Source: Candidatus Thorarchaeota archaeon
Lineage (GTDB): Archaea; Asgardarchaeota; Thorarchaeia; Thorarchaeales; Thorarchaeaceae
DNA: 64,000 nucleotides
Direction: 5' to 3'
Assembly: GCA_029855935.1 (NCBI GenBank)
Contig: JAGSHN010000032.1
Location: 40,756-104,755 of the forward strand
In this document: one piece after another, positions 43,523 through 57,256 of the stretch
Layout of the letters: the number at the start of each line of letters is the position of its first letter
How positions within the stretch are numbered: position 1 is the first letter of the stretch
Translations under genes and position numbers: made by a program
The notes under the pieces: generated by a model
What the model saw: only the letters and a program-made list of their open reading frames with translations
What the model was told of the DNA's origin: nothing
Databases searched by the model: none

Positions 43523-44176
43523 CTATTGACCTCCTCTTGAGTTGCCAATCTCTATTATCCTGTCTGCCAAGCGCTGGGCCTGTTCGCTATTGTGTGTCAC
43601 AATCATCACGCCGATGTCTTGGTCACTGATCACGCGCTGAATGCTCTCCTCAACGACCTCTGTGGAGTCATCATCCAGAGCTGCTGTCGGCTCGTCCAGC
43701 AGCAGGACCTCGGGCTCCAGCAGGAGGGCCCTCGCAATGGCCACACGCTGCTTTTCCCCTCCCGAGAGATTCCCTGCGGTCTTGTCGAGCATAGAAACAG
43801 GGAGGTTGACCTGACTGAGAACATCCCTGAGCCTCTCCTCGGACGCCTCAAGCCTGTGAATCCGCAGTCCCCAGAGAAGATTCTCCCTGACATTGCCCGG
43901 AAACATGCTGGCCTGTTGAGGAACGAGAATCATACTTCTACGCAATTCTCGTGGGTCCCATTCGGTCACGTCCTTGCCGTGAAAGAGCACCCTTCCGGCC
44001 GTCGGCGAGACGAGGTTGACCGCTATCCTGAGGAGCGTGCTCTTGCCGCCTCCGCTGGGCCCTGAGATTCCTATGGTCTCGCCGTGATTCAGTGCAAGAT
44101 TGAGGTCCCTGAAGAGGACCCTCTCACCAAAGGCCATTGTGACACCCATCATCTGTAGGACTGGTCCTTCGCCCAT
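43523..44176 (-). CDS. ABC transporter ATPase, FetA-like
   Basis: A 217-residue ATPase from the ATG at 44176. GPSGGGKST is Walker A, LSGGEKQRVAIARAL the signature, VLLLDEPTAALDD Walker B and VTHN the switch. It pairs with the FetB-like permease directly downstream. An ATCTAAGTA element at about 44213-44221 (minus strand) would start transcription near 44190, after the alternative start at 44203, which is why 44176 is preferred. Substrate, possibly iron or another ion, is inferred from the permease family only. Confidence 0.85.
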   Translation of the reverse strand: MGEGPVLQMMGVTMAFGERVLFRDLNLALNHGETIGISGPSGGGKSTLLRIAVNLVSPTAGRVLFHGKDVTEWDPRELRRSMILVPQQASMFPGNVRENLLWGLRIHRLEASEERLRDVLSQVNLPVSMLDKTAGNLSGGEKQRVAIARALLLEPEVLLLDEPTAALDDDSTEVVEESIQRVISDQDIGVMIVTHNSEQAQRLADRIIEIGNSRGGQ

Positions 44177-44353
44177 CAGTTGATCGCCAAATTGGTGCAG
44201 CAATGCAAGACCTACTTAGATGTTTCAGTGACAGCCACACTCAGCTGGACAATGCCCGCTGGACGAGTCAGACGCGGCCAGTGCTGGCGAGTCAACTCCA
44301 TCTGCGCAAAGCACTTATGGGCACGCCTAGACGGGTGCTCGGAGGTATGACGC

Positions 44354-47837: not shown

Positions 47838-48527
47838 ATGAAGTACGCTATCAATGCAATTCTTGCGCTTGCAATCATCGCGATGTTCATGGTTTCTCCG
47901 GTCGCCGCCGCTACCTCACAGGGTCTTGAGTGGGGCATCCACACTGGCGACAGGTTTGATTTCACCCTCAGGTCGAGTGAAACTGGCTTGAACGAACAGA
48001 TCTACTTGAACATCACGTCGATGCCGGCGACTGCAATCCCCGACCCCTTGACATCATGGGGTAGTATACCAGACCCCGATGTCGGCGCGTACTGGGCGAA
48101 CGGCACATCGATGGGGCTCTATATCCTTGTCTTCCTTGGCCTGCTGTCAACGGGAGGAAAGATTGCCGTACCTGTGGGCAATTTCTCCCTACTCACGAAT
48201 CTCCTTGCGCCAGAGCTCATAGGGGAGGACTTCATCAACGATGCCAGTGTATGGGGTGTCGAGCTGGTGCATGAGCTCAACTCCACGCACGAGGGACACA
48301 TCCGTGTGACGTACTCAAAGTCAGACGGCTTCCTTGCTGAGTACATTCTAACCATGGTCGTTTCGGCCACGGACGAGGTCGTACAGGAGCTGTCCGCCAG
48401 GAGAAACAACCTTGGCGGTGGTATTGGAATCGACCAGCTAGTCCAGCTTGCAAAGGACAATGCCCTGTACATCGGTGCTGCAGTCGTCGTTCTGGTGATC
48501 CTCGGCGTTGTCTGCAAGAGGCGATAG
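47838..48527 (+). CDS. Exported protein with signal peptide and C-terminal membrane anchor
   Basis: A 229-residue protein. A signal peptide of about 24 residues ends in AAAT; the outside part is beta-rich (LEWGIHTGDRFDFTLRSSETGLNEQIYLNITSMP, HIRVTYSKSDGFLAEYILTMVVSA) with several N-x-S/T sites; a final helix (LYIGAAVVVLVILGVVC) and KRR anchor it. This plan recurs in the other surface proteins of this window. No family recognised. A hairpin terminator follows. Confidence 0.7.
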   Translation: MKYAINAILALAIIAMFMVSPVAAATSQGLEWGIHTGDRFDFTLRSSETGLNEQIYLNITSMPATAIPDPLTSWGSIPDPDVGAYWANGTSMGLYILVFLGLLSTGGKIAVPVGNFSLLTNLLAPELIGEDFINDASVWGVELVHELNSTHEGHIRVTYSKSDGFLAEYILTMVVSATDEVVQELSARRNNLGGGIGIDQLVQLAKDNALYIGAAVVVLVILGVVCKRR

Positions 48528-48657: not shown

Positions 48658-50589
48658 TCACTCCCGATGGTTCTTCCGAAGGTGCGCAATAGTTGCTGCT
48701 GTGAACCCTGCAGCGACGGCTGCGGCGACGACTGTGACGCCGAGCGATATCGGGCGGAGGCCGAGTATTCTCCCAATGCCATAAAGACCTGTGGTGTCAC
48801 TGTCATTGACTGGCGGACTGGTGATCGTTGTGTCTGGAGTTCCGGGTGTTGATGGACTCTGAGGGGAGTGGACGATGTTGAAGGGATGTTCTCTGTTTAT
48901 AACGAGCTGGAGGTTGCTGTGCTCATCCCACGCGGAGATGGAGAAAGGACCCGATGTGACAACGGATTCGACGGACTGGTCGAACCGCCAGTGAACTAGC
49001 TGGTCGGTGGTCCAGTTGGAGATTATGTGAGCAGGTAGAACGGGGAGCGTGCCAACACGAAGGAGGTTCCAGTATGACTCGTCCTTGAACTCGATGACGA
49101 TTGACCTCCTGTCGTCTGTGGTGACCTGGGCCACATTCTGGACACACCGATGGAGCCACAGACCTGAGGCCATCCTGAGAGAGTCAATCGTCTGTTTGAC
49201 ATCATACGATGTCACTGGCATTCCATCACTCCAAGTAAAGCCTTGTCTTAGAGTGAAACGGATCTGCATCCTCCCCTCTGGGACGTTGGGGTCGTCGTGG
49301 TGGGTATCGATCTGAAAGGTCCGGGCAAGCCACATATCCGGTTCTCCGGAGGGCCTTCTGCGCAGGAGACTGTCGTAGGCGAGAGAGAGTATGGTCCTGC
49401 GCAGGTCGTGTGCCAGTGCAGATACCTCGATGAGAATCACTGTGCCAGGAAGAACAGTCCTGCCTGCTCGGAATGTCCCCCCGACAGGGCCCCCCTGCTC
49501 CTGTTTTAGGCGCACCAGATATGGTGTCCACCAGCTGAAGAAGCCATCTTCGATCGTGAACACGGGGTCCTCTAGTTTCTCACTGTTCCATAGTTGATAA
49601 CGATACTCCTGGCAGATCGGTATGAAGGGGCATTGCTCAGCGACTATTCTCTGCATCTCGATTGCAGCATCGTAGACTTCGGAATAGCTTGAGGCGTGGA
49701 GGAACTGGTTTCGATAGAAGTCGAACGTGTTGTTCCTGAACTTTGGGAGATTGACATATGGTCGGTCTGCATTGCCCGACCAGAACTCGTCTGCCATCCA
49801 GATAATGTCATTGAACCGCGGATAGAGCACGTGCAGAAAGAAGAAATAGCGTTTCTCGCGCTCGATGCTGAGTAGCTCGCTAACGCTCCACTCATCGTAG
49901 ACTATGAGCTGGCTCTGTATTCCAATGTCTTCCAGAGTCGACACTATTGTCTGGCCCGCGGCCCGGGCCTGCGGCGAGTCGTGTGTCACAACTGGGAGGA
50001 TCCCGAACTCGACACTCGCCCGACCCAGTGGTCCCGGGCCTTCCAAGTAGCTGTCATTATCGGAGTCAAAGAATCCCGCATTCGCAAGAACCTGTCGGGC
50101 CTTTGTGACGAGTCCGTAGCGGTACATCGGACCTATGACCTTCTCGGCTGTGAAGGGGTCTGTTGGAGGGATGCAGGCCTCAAGAGTTCTGCCGGAGTTG
50201 TTCATCGCATCACGGAGAATCGCAACCTTGTCGATTGCGAAGGCAACGGCCCTCCGGAATTGCGTAATATTAAGGGGATATCTCTCAGTGTTCAGTGATA
50301 GGGACCAGTACCAATCGCAGGGGATCATCACAGTGCGAACAGACTGTGTAGTATTGATCTGTGACAGGCGGTCGTATCGGACCGGGTCAAGTGCCATATC
50401 GATGTCGCCATTCTGCAGGGCCACGAGTTCCTCGTCGGTATTGGACAGCCCGACATAGTCGATTCTGTCTACGTAGCCCCCATACGGTGGAGTGGAGGCC
50501 ATAGTCTTCTTGGCGACTATCTGTGGAGATACTGCTGCGAGCAGGACTAGACTGATTGCGATGATGCCCACGCCACGCCTTACCAACAA
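48658..50589 (-). CDS. Solute-binding protein, SBP_bac_5 family, circularly permuted and membrane-anchored
   Basis: A 643-residue exported protein from a TTG with GTGAGGAC upstream. Residues 1-26 are a signal sequence. Residues 40-360 match the second half of oligopeptide/nickel-binding proteins (IDYVGLSNTDEELVALQNGDIDMA, LNITQFRRAVAFAIDKVAIL), while residues 370-570 match the first half: GGTFRAGRTVLPGTV, FTLRQGFTWSDGMPVTSYDV (family signature at 445-464), TSGPFSISAW. The usual order is thus swapped, with the cut just before the IDYVG strand. A Ser/Thr/Pro linker (575-600), a transmembrane helix (about 610-632) and KNHRE follow. No permease or ATPase gene adjoins, so its transporter is elsewhere or it is a receptor. 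Confidence 0.75.
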   Translation of the reverse strand: MLVRRGVGIIAISLVLLAAVSPQIVAKKTMASTPPYGGYVDRIDYVGLSNTDEELVALQNGDIDMALDPVRYDRLSQINTTQSVRTVMIPCDWYWSLSLNTERYPLNITQFRRAVAFAIDKVAILRDAMNNSGRTLEACIPPTDPFTAEKVIGPMYRYGLVTKARQVLANAGFFDSDNDSYLEGPGPLGRASVEFGILPVVTHDSPQARAAGQTIVSTLEDIGIQSQLIVYDEWSVSELLSIEREKRYFFFLHVLYPRFNDIIWMADEFWSGNADRPYVNLPKFRNNTFDFYRNQFLHASSYSEVYDAAIEMQRIVAEQCPFIPICQEYRYQLWNSEKLEDPVFTIEDGFFSWWTPYLVRLKQEQGGPVGGTFRAGRTVLPGTVILIEVSALAHDLRRTILSLAYDSLLRRRPSGEPDMWLARTFQIDTHHDDPNVPEGRMQIRFTLRQGFTWSDGMPVTSYDVKQTIDSLRMASGLWLHRCVQNVAQVTTDDRRSIVIEFKDESYWNLLRVGTLPVLPAHIISNWTTDQLVHWRFDQSVESVVTSGPFSISAWDEHSNLQLVINREHPFNIVHSPQSPSTPGTPDTTITSPPVNDSDTTGLYGIGRILGLRPISLGVTVVAAAVAAGFTAATIAHLRKNHRE

Positions 50590-52605: not shown

Positions 52606-53820
52606 ATGTCACGAGTCACGGTCCTTGGTGGAGCCGGAACAGTCGGAGCGGTGGCCGTGCGGACCCTGCTCTCGTCAGGCGAATTCTCTGAGGTGGTAAT
52701 CGCCGACCTGAATATGCCACTTGCTAATCAGCGACTCAAGGAGATGGCGGATGACAGGCTCTCAGCCGTGAAGGTCGACGCCTCTGATGTCGAGTCTGTC
52801 AAGCGGGTCATCAAGGACTCAGAGGTCGTTGTCAATTGCGCCGGACCGTTCTATAGGCTCGGTCCGAGCGTTCTTAGGGCGGTGATCTCCGCTGGTGTGA
52901 ACAGCGTTGACGTCTGTGATGACTTCGATGCGACGCGCCTTCTGCTGAAGATGGACGAGGATGCCAAGAAGGCTGGCATAACTGCTCTGACGGGAATGGG
53001 CAGCTCGCCGGGCATAGCAAACCTGATTGCGAAGCTCTGTGCTGACCAGATGCTCGACGAGGTCGAGTCGATCGACATCCTGCACGCGCACGGCGGCGAG
53101 CCCAGAGAGGGCCCGGCGGTCGTTGCGCACAGGATACACAGTATGCTCGCAGACATTCCTATGTACCTCGATGGCAAGTTCACCACGGTCAGGTACTTCG
53201 AGGAGAGCGGTAGGGCTCTGGAGGAGGATGTCGACTTTCCCAAGCTCGGTACGTTCAGGTGCTATCCGTATCCCCATCCTGAGACCATCACCCTTCCCCG
53301 CTACATCAAGTGCAAGAGAGTGACCAACCTTGGCTGTGTGCTACCCACTGAGTACTACGACCTCATCCGCAACATTGTCCGGCTTGGGATAGTGGGCGAT
53401 GAACCGATTGACGTGAAGGGCGTGAAGGTGGCGCCGCTCGACTTTGCTATAGCCTACATCCTTCACGAGCGCGAGAGAATACTTCGGGAAACGAACTTTG
53501 GTACCCAGCGTGGTTGTCTCAAGATCACAATCAAGGGCAAGCTCGACGGCAAGCCGCACAGGTTCGACTTCTCGCTTGTTTCCGTCGGTCAGTCAATGGG
53601 CGAGGGGACGGGCATTCCTGCAGCCATAGGTGCGATACTGATGCACAAGGGCAAGATAACAGAGAAAGGAGTGTTGCCTCCCGAGGGCTGCGTCAATCCG
53701 TTCGAGTTCCTCCTTGAGATGCAGAGACATCTGGGTCTGGACAGCCTCAGCTCCGAGGAGTCGCCACTGATCATTGAGTCGACCGACAGCGAGGGCAATA
53801 CTGAGCGCGTCACGCTGTGA
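52606..53820 (+). CDS. Saccharopine dehydrogenase-family oxidoreductase
   Basis: A 404-residue NAD(P)-dependent enzyme. VLGGAGTVGAVAVRTLL is the Rossmann loop, VVIADLN the cofactor-selecting strand end, VVNCAGPFYRLGPSVLRAVISAGVNSVDVCDD the family block, and GMGSSPGIANLIAKLCADQML the second domain entry. The family works on saccharopine, carboxynorspermidine, lysine or homospermidine; the substrate here is not certain. A TATA-like CATCTAAATG some 30 nt upstream indicates a leaderless message. The FGGY kinase gene follows after 93 nt. Confidence 0.8.
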   Translation: MSRVTVLGGAGTVGAVAVRTLLSSGEFSEVVIADLNMPLANQRLKEMADDRLSAVKVDASDVESVKRVIKDSEVVVNCAGPFYRLGPSVLRAVISAGVNSVDVCDDFDATRLLLKMDEDAKKAGITALTGMGSSPGIANLIAKLCADQMLDEVESIDILHAHGGEPREGPAVVAHRIHSMLADIPMYLDGKFTTVRYFEESGRALEEDVDFPKLGTFRCYPYPHPETITLPRYIKCKRVTNLGCVLPTEYYDLIRNIVRLGIVGDEPIDVKGVKVAPLDFAIAYILHERERILRETNFGTQRGCLKITIKGKLDGKPHRFDFSLVSVGQSMGEGTGIPAAIGAILMHKGKITEKGVLPPEGCVNPFEFLLEMQRHLGLDSLSSEESPLIIESTDSEGNTERVTL

Positions 53821-53928
53821 GACCTCCAGAATACCGGTCCTTGGCCTCCAGAGCATCAGGTTGGCCAAAAGCTATTTTGGAGACCTACACGACTAGATAC
53901 GTTCCTCAATGTTGTGGGAGTGTGCGCA

Positions 53929-55512
53929 TTGACCACATACGTGTTGGCTCACGATGTCGGTACTGGCGGCGACAAAGCATCACTCATTGACCAAACAGGG
54001 AGAATCGTCGCCTCCGCCGTGAGGGACTATCCTGTTCTCTACCCGCAGCCCGGCTGGGCTGAACAGGACCCGGAGGCGCACTGGTGGCAGGCCATCTGTG
54101 AGACCACTCGGCGCGTACTATCGGACTCTGGTGTTGAACCGCGGGATGTGGCCGCTGTCGTCTTCTCGACGCAGATGATGGGGACCATTCCTGTGGACCG
54201 TGATGGCCGGCCCCTGATGAACTGTATGACCTGGATGGACACCCGTGCGGCTGAGCAGAACAAGGCGATCATCTCCAATCCCATCAGGATGCTGAGGATG
54301 CTGCGGCTGACTGGCGGGCTGCCGTCGGGCAAGGACATCATTGGCAAGATCGTCTGGTTGAGAGAGGAGCGTCCACAGATCTATGAGAAGACGCACAAGT
54401 TCCTGGACTGTAAGGACTACCTGATTCATCGCTGCACGGGCGAGTACGTGACATCCTACGACTGTGCCAACCTCACGTGGTTCATGGACTCGCGCAGAGG
54501 CAGATTGAGGTGGTCGTCGACGATACTGGGCTGGATTCGGCTCGACGAGGACAGGCTTCCAAGGCTTGCGCCGTCGACAGAGATAGTCGGGACACTCACG
54601 CCCGAGGCGGCCTCTGAGATGGGTCTCACCACCGAGACTCAGGTTGTCAATGGGGCAGGCGACATGACGTCCGCCGGTGTGGGCTCTGGCGCTGTCCGTG
54701 AGAGGGAGGTACATCTCTACGCCGGGTCCAGCGCCTGGCTGGGTGCCCATGTGTCGAGCAGGAAGCTGGACATCTGGACCTATACCGGGTCCATCTGCAG
54801 CGCCATCCCGGGTATGTACTTGATGATTGCAGAGCAGGAGTCAGCAGGGGCGTGTCTGAAGCACCTGCGGGAGAACTGGCACTGTGACCTGTGTCGTCAC
54901 GTCATCGAACGCGCCGCAACAGTCTGCACCCAGTGTGAGACAGGTGAGCGGAACCCCTACGCCGAGCTCGACGAGATAGCGGCTGGCGCCTCTCCCGGTT
55001 CTGAGGGCCTAATATTCGCACCGTGGATGTTTGGTGAGCGCTCGCCGATTGATGACCATTTCGTGCGTGGTGGATACTTCAATCTCTCCCTTGCTCACGG
55101 CAAGACCCATATGATTAGGGCGGTACTGGAGGGCGTTGCCTATCACATCCGGTGGATGATGGAGGGCCTTGAGAAACGGAAGATGCTGGGACGAGTGCCT
55201 GCCGTGAACATGATTGGCGGGTGTGCCCGCTCTGACATCTGGCCACAGATCATTGCTGATGTGCTGCAGAAACCAGTGCGACGTGTGCGTCATCCACTGG
55301 AGGCTGGAAGCGTTGGCGCTGCGATGATTGCCTTTGTTGCACTTGGTGAGGTCTCCAACTTCTCTGCGGTGGCGCACATAGTCGAGATTGACAGAGTGTT
55401 CGATCCCAATCCTGGCAACTCTGAGGTCTATGACTCCGGCTTCCGGGTACTAAAGGAGTATTACAGGCGCAACAAGAGCCTCTGGCGTAAGGTCAACAGA
55501 CAACGCCGTTGA
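53929..55512 (+). CDS. FGGY-family carbohydrate kinase with zinc-ribbon-like insertion
   Basis: About 527 residues from a TTG with GGGAG 8 nt upstream (GTGs at 53914 and 53920 are alternatives). AHDVGTGGDKASLID is the N-terminal phosphate loop of xylulokinase-like enzymes, WMDTRA and QVVNGAGDMTSAGVGSGAV hold the sugar-binding and catalytic Asp (Asp245), and GGCARSDIWPQIIADVLQKPV the adenosine site. Between the two lobes is an insert, CDLCRHVIERAATVCTQCE, with two C-x2-C pairs (about residues 319-336) that looks like a zinc ribbon and is unusual in this family. It probably phosphorylates a pentulose or tetrose-type sugar. Close to a RuBisCO-like gene. Confidence 0.85.
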   Translation: MTTYVLAHDVGTGGDKASLIDQTGRIVASAVRDYPVLYPQPGWAEQDPEAHWWQAICETTRRVLSDSGVEPRDVAAVVFSTQMMGTIPVDRDGRPLMNCMTWMDTRAAEQNKAIISNPIRMLRMLRLTGGLPSGKDIIGKIVWLREERPQIYEKTHKFLDCKDYLIHRCTGEYVTSYDCANLTWFMDSRRGRLRWSSTILGWIRLDEDRLPRLAPSTEIVGTLTPEAASEMGLTTETQVVNGAGDMTSAGVGSGAVREREVHLYAGSSAWLGAHVSSRKLDIWTYTGSICSAIPGMYLMIAEQESAGACLKHLRENWHCDLCRHVIERAATVCTQCETGERNPYAELDEIAAGASPGSEGLIFAPWMFGERSPIDDHFVRGGYFNLSLAHGKTHMIRAVLEGVAYHIRWMMEGLEKRKMLGRVPAVNMIGGCARSDIWPQIIADVLQKPVRRVRHPLEAGSVGAAMIAFVALGEVSNFSAVAHIVEIDRVFDPNPGNSEVYDSGFRVLKEYYRRNKSLWRKVNRQRR

Positions 55513-55948: not shown

Positions 55949-57256
55949 CTAGAGGTCAAAGCCCGTGCGGCCCGATCCCCACGCGTCAAGGGCTCTCTGG
56001 AGTTCCTCGTGTTCCTTGGCATATCGTCCCACAGGTATGCCCTGCATCTTGGCCTCTATCGCCTGCCTGAAAGCCCTCGCGCCAGCCCGCGGTCCGTCGG
56101 GATGTGCGTGAATGGCACCGCCTGCGCCGATGACGATGTCAGTTCCCAAGTCGTCTATGACCTCCTCGACCATCCCTTGTGATATGCCGCCACTGGGCAT
56201 CGGCATGGTCTGTTCGATGTGGTGCAGCGGCATCACCATGTCGTGGGCCATGTGCAGGAATCTCTCCTTCAGGATTGGCGCCTTGCCGTATGGCGCAGGG
56301 AAGACTGTGATGTCTGAGCCGCAGACTCTCGGCAGCTTGCCGATGACGATGTTTGTCGCAATCCCCGTGATTGGGGAGTAGGACAGGGCGCCCGTGATGT
56401 CCATATGTGCAAGAACGGGGACGTTGACGGACGGGTCCTCACAGACCGCCCTGAAGGCCGAATAGCCCACAGCGAGGAAGTTGATCATCAACGCATTGGC
56501 GCCCAGCTCGATGGCCCGCTCAGCGTTCTCAAGCAGCTGCGGAATGCGATCTGTGATGTTGACAGTGTACAGTGTCTTCTCGCCCTTCTCGGAGTCTGCC
56601 CGGTCAATCGCCTCCATGAAGAGCGGTACCCTCTCCTCGATGCTGTTGAAGGAGGCATTCGCCAGCAGTTCGTCGTCCTTCACGATGTCTGCTCCTCCGA
56701 CCGCCGCCTCATAGCAGAGCTCAGCACCTACCTTCGCCGACGTGTAGACGCACGGCTTGATCATGTTGTTCAGCAGCGGCCTGTCACGTACACCGAGGAG
56801 CTTCCTGAGGCCCTTGATACCGAACTTCGGACCCTTGAAGCCCTTCAGCCAGCTCTTCGGGAACCTCATATCGAGACACTTGATCCTGCCGCCGAGAGAG
56901 ATGTTCCCTATCACCGTTGACAGCAGCATTGGTATCTGCTGCCCGAAGTTCTCCCACGGGAAGGCCACCTGGATGACGTATTGCCGCCGCTCAAGGTCCT
57001 TCGGCGTGCTGTACTCGTACTGTGGCACCTCGTAGATGCCGATGACCTTCGCAACGTGCCGTTTCCGCACCTCGACGGTCTCCCCAGGCACGAGCGTCCA
57101 CGTACCGGTGCTCTGCTCCACAGCAGCAGCCTGCGCCACATCCCTCACGTCGATGAAGGGCGGCAGACCCACATAGTAAGTGCAGATCACGTACTTCTCA
57201 ACGTCTATAGCGTCGGGCAACGCATCAGGCAACGCATCCAGTGGTAGTCTCTCCAT
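55949..57256 (-). CDS. RuBisCO-like protein (form IV-type large subunit)
   Basis: A 435-residue RuBisCO large-subunit homologue. Kept landmarks (spinach numbers in brackets): Glu47 (60), Thr52 and Trp53 (65, 66), Asn118 (123), Lys167 (175), KDDE with Lys193, Asp195 and Glu196 (201, 203, 204), His284 (294), Lys307 (334), SGG 355-357 (379-381), GG 379-380 (403-404). Changed: Cys169 for Lys177, Met285 for Arg295, Ala300 for His327. With the carbamylated lysine retained but these phosphate/catalytic residues lost, it is probably not a carboxylase but an enolase, isomerase or decarboxylase type of form IV. GTGAGAG precedes the ATG. The neighbouring FGGY kinase suggests a sugar-phosphate pathway. 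Confidence 0.85.
   Translation of the reverse strand: MERLPLDALPDALPDAIDVEKYVICTYYVGLPPFIDVRDVAQAAAVEQSTGTWTLVPGETVEVRKRHVAKVIGIYEVPQYEYSTPKDLERRQYVIQVAFPWENFGQQIPMLLSTVIGNISLGGRIKCLDMRFPKSWLKGFKGPKFGIKGLRKLLGVRDRPLLNNMIKPCVYTSAKVGAELCYEAAVGGADIVKDDELLANASFNSIEERVPLFMEAIDRADSEKGEKTLYTVNITDRIPQLLENAERAIELGANALMINFLAVGYSAFRAVCEDPSVNVPVLAHMDITGALSYSPITGIATNIVIGKLPRVCGSDITVFPAPYGKAPILKERFLHMAHDMVMPLHHIEQTMPMPSGGISQGMVEEVIDDLGTDIVIGAGGAIHAHPDGPRAGARAFRQAIEAKMQGIPVGRYAKEHEELQRALDAWGSGRTGFDL

Follow-up and report, generated by a model that had tools for sequence, protein, structure and literature searches.

A putative circularly permuted, membrane-tethered cluster-C solute-binding protein in a Thorarchaeal genome and the distribution of its relatives

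The receptor gene and its surroundings

The window analysed here, a stretch of 64,000 nucleotides from a Candidatus Thorarchaeota archaeon, carries a gene for a family-5 solute-binding protein (SBP). The gene, its segments and its neighbours are listed in Table 1 together with genes at other loci. Kyte-Doolittle peaks of the window protein (window starts 1-9 and 608-619) support an N-terminal signal peptide, which is likely cleaved, and a C-terminal transmembrane (TM) helix; the helix had been proposed in the sequence-only reading of this DNA. The helix, which the other permuted paralogues of the genome also have, is followed by a basic tail (HLRKNHRE). The family motifs were found where that reading had placed them: LQNGDIDMA from residue 58, FRRAVAFAIDK at 111-121 and FTLRQGFTWSDGMPVTSYDV at 445-464.

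Table 1. Positions of the receptor gene, its segments and its neighbours in the window, and of genes at other loci (locus given before the colon).
Feature	Position	Strand	Evidence or remark
Type-A permuted family-5 SBP gene	48658..50589	(-)	643 aa, TTG start, intact ORF
Signal peptide region at the N-terminus (hydrophobic residues 1-27)	50509..50589	(-)	hydropathy peak, low pLDDT at 1-31
Normally C-terminal ~60%, residues 36-365	49495..50484	(-)	PF00496 147-364; 1xoc 206-520, 1dpe 207-507
Normally N-terminal ~40%, residues 366-575, with FTLRQGFTWSDGMPVTSYDV	48865..49494	(-)	PF00496 12-137; 1xoc 17-213
S/T/P-rich linker, residues 576-612	48754..48864	(-)	sequence PSTPGTPDTTITSPPVNDSDTTG; pLDDT <50 from 578
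Putative C-terminal TM helix, about residues 614-636	48682..48750	(-)	hydropathy peak; shared with other permuted paralogues
ABC ATPase gene	43523-44203		sole one near the receptor gene
Pyroglutamyl peptidase gene	46308-46952		
Gene convergent with the receptor gene	47838-48527	(+)	229 aa, signal peptide and C-terminal helix
Saccharopine-dehydrogenase-like protein	52606-53820		
FGGY sugar kinase	53914-55512		
RuBisCO large-chain family protein	55949-57256	(-)	435 aa
DppC of C27	L012:9383-11002		example of an enlarged DppC
Receptor-protease fusions	L040:421-5364; L262:1927-9705; L263:1873-9414; L264:795-8531; L265:3181-10080		1600-2600 aa
Type-B permuted proteins	L080:3523-5142; L146:1357-3066; L157:1441-3195; also L173, L178, L179, L256-L261		order C2-N-C1

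No transporter genes are adjacent to the window gene, and the single ABC ATPase gene in its vicinity has no Dpp/Opp-type permease beside it. The earlier statement that the receptor lacks ABC partners thus holds for the neighbourhood. The nearby pyroglutamyl peptidase gene is a weak hint at peptides. For the product of the convergent gene, a confident family assignment was not found. Further, the gene for the RuBisCO-family protein lies near those for the sugar kinase and the saccharopine-dehydrogenase-like protein.

The genome encodes nine family-5 receptors, and in seven of them the permutation is found at one and the same position. The other two, of ordinary order, adjoin full Dpp gene sets of their own and possess N-terminal hydrophobic anchors. 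Of the seven permuted genes, six are located apart from Dpp/Opp permeases; the remaining one, on contig C27, is located 84 bp downstream of a gene for an OppC-type permease, with DppB, a second DppC, DppD and DppF encoded within about 20 kb. Identity of the window protein is 37% to its nearest paralogue in the genome and at most 36% to family members elsewhere, among the matches listed. It is a divergent paralogue whose role may have changed.

Segment order and predicted fold

Profile PF00496 (SBP_bac_5; Pfam gathering cut-off 32.4 bits) matched the window protein with 142 bits (3.2e-41) in two stretches. The best of these comprised residues 39-273, aligned to profile positions 147-364; the second, seen in the genome profile search, lay downstream in the same ORF and corresponded to profile positions 12-137. 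Since profile positions 147-364 precede 12-137 in one ORF, the order of the segments is swapped. The standard linear order of SBP_bac_5 is absent from the window protein, and the matches in ordinary order that would have spoken against a permutation were not obtained.

A circular-shift scan was performed in which residues 32-577 were rotated in steps of five and compared with a profile derived from 51 ordinary-order relatives. In the native order, the best single domain scored 163 bits and covered part of the profile only. Chains starting at 362-367 reached 253 bits over profile positions 28-483 of 495, and scores were lower again beyond. The gain by rotation at residue ~365 amounted to 89 bits over the native order, and the best composition-matched shuffle scored 4 bits against the same profile. 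As judged from the sequence, this optimum is the mark of a circular permutation in which the native termini have been joined near residue 365, and the window protein is a circular permutant of SBP_bac_5 rather than an ordinary member. The native termini would be fused and new ones opened between the 'NPxYW' strand and the 'GPYVDxIxY' strand, with the binding fold otherwise kept as in ordinary relatives.

An AlphaFold2 model computed from an alignment of permuted homologues (51 rows) had a mean pLDDT of 80 and a pTM of 0.79, with long stretches of pLDDT <50 confined to the signal peptide (1-31) and to the linker and anchor (578-643). Because Foldseek and VIA-align follow sequence order, they covered mainly residues ~32-363 of the model. 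The two halves were compared separately. Residues ~32-363 align to the C-terminal part of the AppA, DppA and NikA structures: residues 32-363 match AppA (1xoc) 206-520 with Z 27, and the match to 1dpe 207-507 has Z 26 and an rmsd of 2.4. Residues 366-577 were modelled alone, and 366-575 of these match 1xoc 17-213 (Z 19.0). Together, the two segments span AppA once, each part being present once, and the join from residue ~570 to ~40 that had been predicted from the sequence is confirmed to within a few residues. The model supports a complete two-lobed cluster-C fold in one chain, and its high pTM argues against two separate folds. All strong fold matches listed belong to cluster C family 5, with no MglB-like (cluster B) chain among them, and all 60 PDB matches listed have the ordinary order, none being a permuted homologue.

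As the data derive from a metagenome-assembled genome and the best single domain in native order leaves some of the profile unmatched, the swapped order might be ascribed to an assembly join or to a chance fusion of two partial domains. However, neither half is missing or duplicated, the two together make up a single protein in one confident model, and the same order recurs in many assemblies, with about 118 such ORFs, some of them on a Thorarchaeal chromosome assembled as a single contig (L065, L076), and also in bacteria. Recurrence across independent assemblies refutes such an artefact, the probability of which is negligible.

Distribution and origin of the permuted order

The order seen in the window protein (type A) was followed with profile A1, made from the seven permuted paralogues, and was read from the match ranges: permuted proteins gave one continuous match and ordinary ones two pieces. 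Matches to A1 were present in 45 of the 47 genomes of the window's family, nearly all rows listed being full-length, so that the permuted order is the rule in this lineage. Type A was further found in the Asgard families f9, f12, f10 and f23, including named Hermodarchaeota. It occurs in at least about 26 of 398 Thermoproteota genomes and, in the Bacillota phylum to which a Halobacteroidaceae bacterium belongs, likewise in at least about 26 of 398; in both cases full-length rows were counted, and the numbers are lower bounds with the best three candidates per genome scored. None was found among 301 genomes of Chloroflexi at E 1e-35. With seven paralogues in one genome and a class common to other archaea and bacteria, the permutation is not peculiar to the window gene.

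In the bacterial type-A proteins inspected, the chain stops at most a few residues after the NPNYW strand; they have no anchor and no obvious lipobox. The new termini are therefore clean, and the tether is separable from the permutation since these members do without it. The idea that tethering caused the permutation was discarded, given the anchor-free bacterial proteins and the C-terminal helices of L147 and L149, two ordinary-order Asgard receptors. A duplication intermediate (N-C-N-C) was not encountered either: the examined ORFs of more than 1000 aa hold a subtilase or Ig-like repeats rather than a second receptor.

In the receptor tree, ordinary and type-B proteins (see below) are split from type A with a support of 100/99, except for L147-L149. 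In the best tree, these ordinary-order Asgard proteins (families f24 and f25) take a basal position on the type-A branch of Asgards; both members inspected, L147 and L149, are those with C-terminal helices. They are possibly the nearest unpermuted relatives of type A or the result of a reversion. Their position would fit a permuted class that arose more than once, the type A of Asgards and that of Thermoproteota and bacteria being convergent. Such multiple origins are somewhat doubtful, however, as the AU test does not reject one common type-A clade (p 0.16), the partner permeases group by type, and the break point is identical.

A second permutation, termed type B, has the order C2-N-C1 and is cut after the 'AGYxDxDGDGxRE' motif (loop). 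Bacteria, Thermoproteota and Asgards all have it: it was observed in several Asgard families, in a Desulfurococcales archaeon and in a Halobacteroidaceae bacterium, and several of the proteins have a C-terminal helix and permeases encoded next door. In the receptor tree, type-B proteins are scattered among ordinary proteins.

Transport partners, substrate and significance

In other lineages, type-A receptors are part of co-linear operons with the five-gene make-up of E. coli DppABCDF (PMC12136057). Of ten bacterial loci retrieved, seven (L222, L223, L225, L226, L228, L229, L231) had a complete SBP-DppB-DppC-DppD-DppF operon headed by type A, as had three Thermoproteota loci (L232, L233, L240). 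In a further one of the latter (L238), the DppBCDF set is placed divergently from the type-A receptor, and most remaining bacterial and Thermoproteota type-A loci carry a partial Dpp set. At ten loci of the Thorarchaeal type, the permuted SBP adjoins DppB and/or DppC. In the DppB tree, the partners of type A and the DppB of C27 form one group of 40 rows (SH-aLRT 92), which also includes two type-B partners; L201, a very long type-A branch, falls outside.

Apart from the permuted receptor, type-A systems differ from DppABCDF in their mostly longer DppC. In type-A systems this protein mostly measures 464-578 aa, while most of the ordinary and type-B systems sampled have one of about 280-330 aa. 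The pattern is broken by L233 (309, type A), L104 (503), L248 (422), L080 (592, start uncertain) and the two ordinary Asgard systems of the window genome (437 and 443 aa). The greater length is due to extra residues, about 200 in most type-A systems, between the first helix and the LGTDxxGRD motif. The Thorarchaeal insert had no match in Pfam or PDB and did not detectably resemble the inserts of bacteria or Thermoproteota. The chances are about even that type-A receptors, their own DppB branch and an enlarged DppC with an extra extracellular domain make up a distinct, undescribed class of peptide-type importers. Such a class would be common to Asgards, Thermoproteota and some Bacillota, its receptors would dock unlike DppA/OppA, and in Thorarchaea the receptors would have multiplied, several of them becoming joined to secreted subtilases.

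With good confidence, the window protein is taken to be a naturally permuted cluster-C SBP, exported and membrane-tethered, which probably feeds a type-A Dpp/Opp-like importer encoded elsewhere (C27). The permutation, the single predicted fold, the anchor signature, the class distribution, the co-linear operons of relatives and the clustering of partner permeases were all computed here. Operons and permease clustering support an import receptor role of the type-A class; by extension, the window paralogue would have the same role and use the C27 transporter. A permease gene adjoins the C27 paralogue, with the rest of the set within 20 kb, and many relatives are encoded together with a cognate permease and ATPases; the window gene is not. 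In mechanistic terms, the signal peptide would export the protein, and the S/T/P-rich linker and C-terminal helix would tether it to the outer face of the membrane. The substrate would be caught by the usual flytrap motion and handed to the C27 importer, a member of the type-A branch that several permuted receptors would have in common.

The sequence-only reading had left the choice between a tethered receptor and cooperation with a distant transporter. The latter has gained support from the DppB, DppC, DppD and DppF genes near the permuted paralogue on C27, the former less so. A permuted surface receptor that operates independently of a transporter, either sensing or concentrating its substrate or supporting a neighbouring protease, would agree with the divergence of the window protein, with the lack of a permease beside its gene and beside those of most permuted paralogues, and with the location of some Thorarchaeal homologues within surface proteins of 1200-2600 aa that contain subtilase or Ig-like domains. 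It is nevertheless unlikely, given the links of the class as a whole to the SBP-BCDF operons of other lineages and to a permease branch of its own. Moreover, orphan receptors that share one translocator are known in the family: five DppA receptors of Pseudomonas aeruginosa use one DppBCDF (PMC4206461).

Oligopeptides are slightly favoured as substrate of the window protein, oligosaccharides being a possible alternative. Peptides are preferred because several Thorarchaeal genomes encode, as a single exported polypeptide, a type-A receptor joined to a subtilisin-family protease, as found in L040 (1.6e-35) and L262 (6.3e-33) and, by motif evidence, in L263-L265. Mannoside- and chito-oligosaccharide-binding proteins are among the closest solved relatives by sequence in the matches listed. 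DppA gives no guide to the substrate, since its residues R383 and D436, which hold the termini of the dipeptide (PMC12136057), are not conserved in type A. In an alignment that is uncertain in this region, R is present in seven of 66 type-A rows at R383, D does not rank within the six most frequent letters at D436, and the window protein has neither equivalent. The best NCBIfam equivalog was Opp4A (57 bits; cut-off 650), DppA scored 25.7 bits (cut-off 1005), and no equivalog cut-off was reached.

The window protein thus shares family, fold (in two pieces) and predicted export with DppA, OppA, AppA and NikA, and differs from ordinary SBP_bac_5 proteins in its swapped segments, its C-terminal anchor and the dipeptide-clamp residues. 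A natural circular permutation with conserved fold and binding has been described for TpMglB-2 (Tp0684) of Treponema pallidum, an ABC SBP designated 'Type Ic / Cluster Bc', and its authors suggest the permuted topology as a possible adaptation to tethering (PMC4990184). That protein is a sugar-binding one of cluster B and hence of another fold class, and its last 70-100 residues are unmatched by ordinary relatives, whereas about 200 residues have moved in the window protein of cluster C. No description of natural permutation in family 5 or in Asgard transporters was found in the open-licence literature searched, an absence that is weak evidence. Fold and role are known; permutation in family 5 and the type-A class are apparently undescribed.

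Natural permutation is rarely reported in ABC SBPs; the one documented case found lies in another cluster. The present family, which ranks with the commonest receptor families, carries no fewer than two separate permutations across archaea and bacteria, and type A is tied to a permease branch of its own. Family databases and order-bound structure tools catch the halves only, and permuted proteins are consequently split, mis-scored or called truncated. Since its untethered bacterial members weaken the tethering explanation put forward for TpMglB-2, the type-A class offers a direct test of why a permutation persists.
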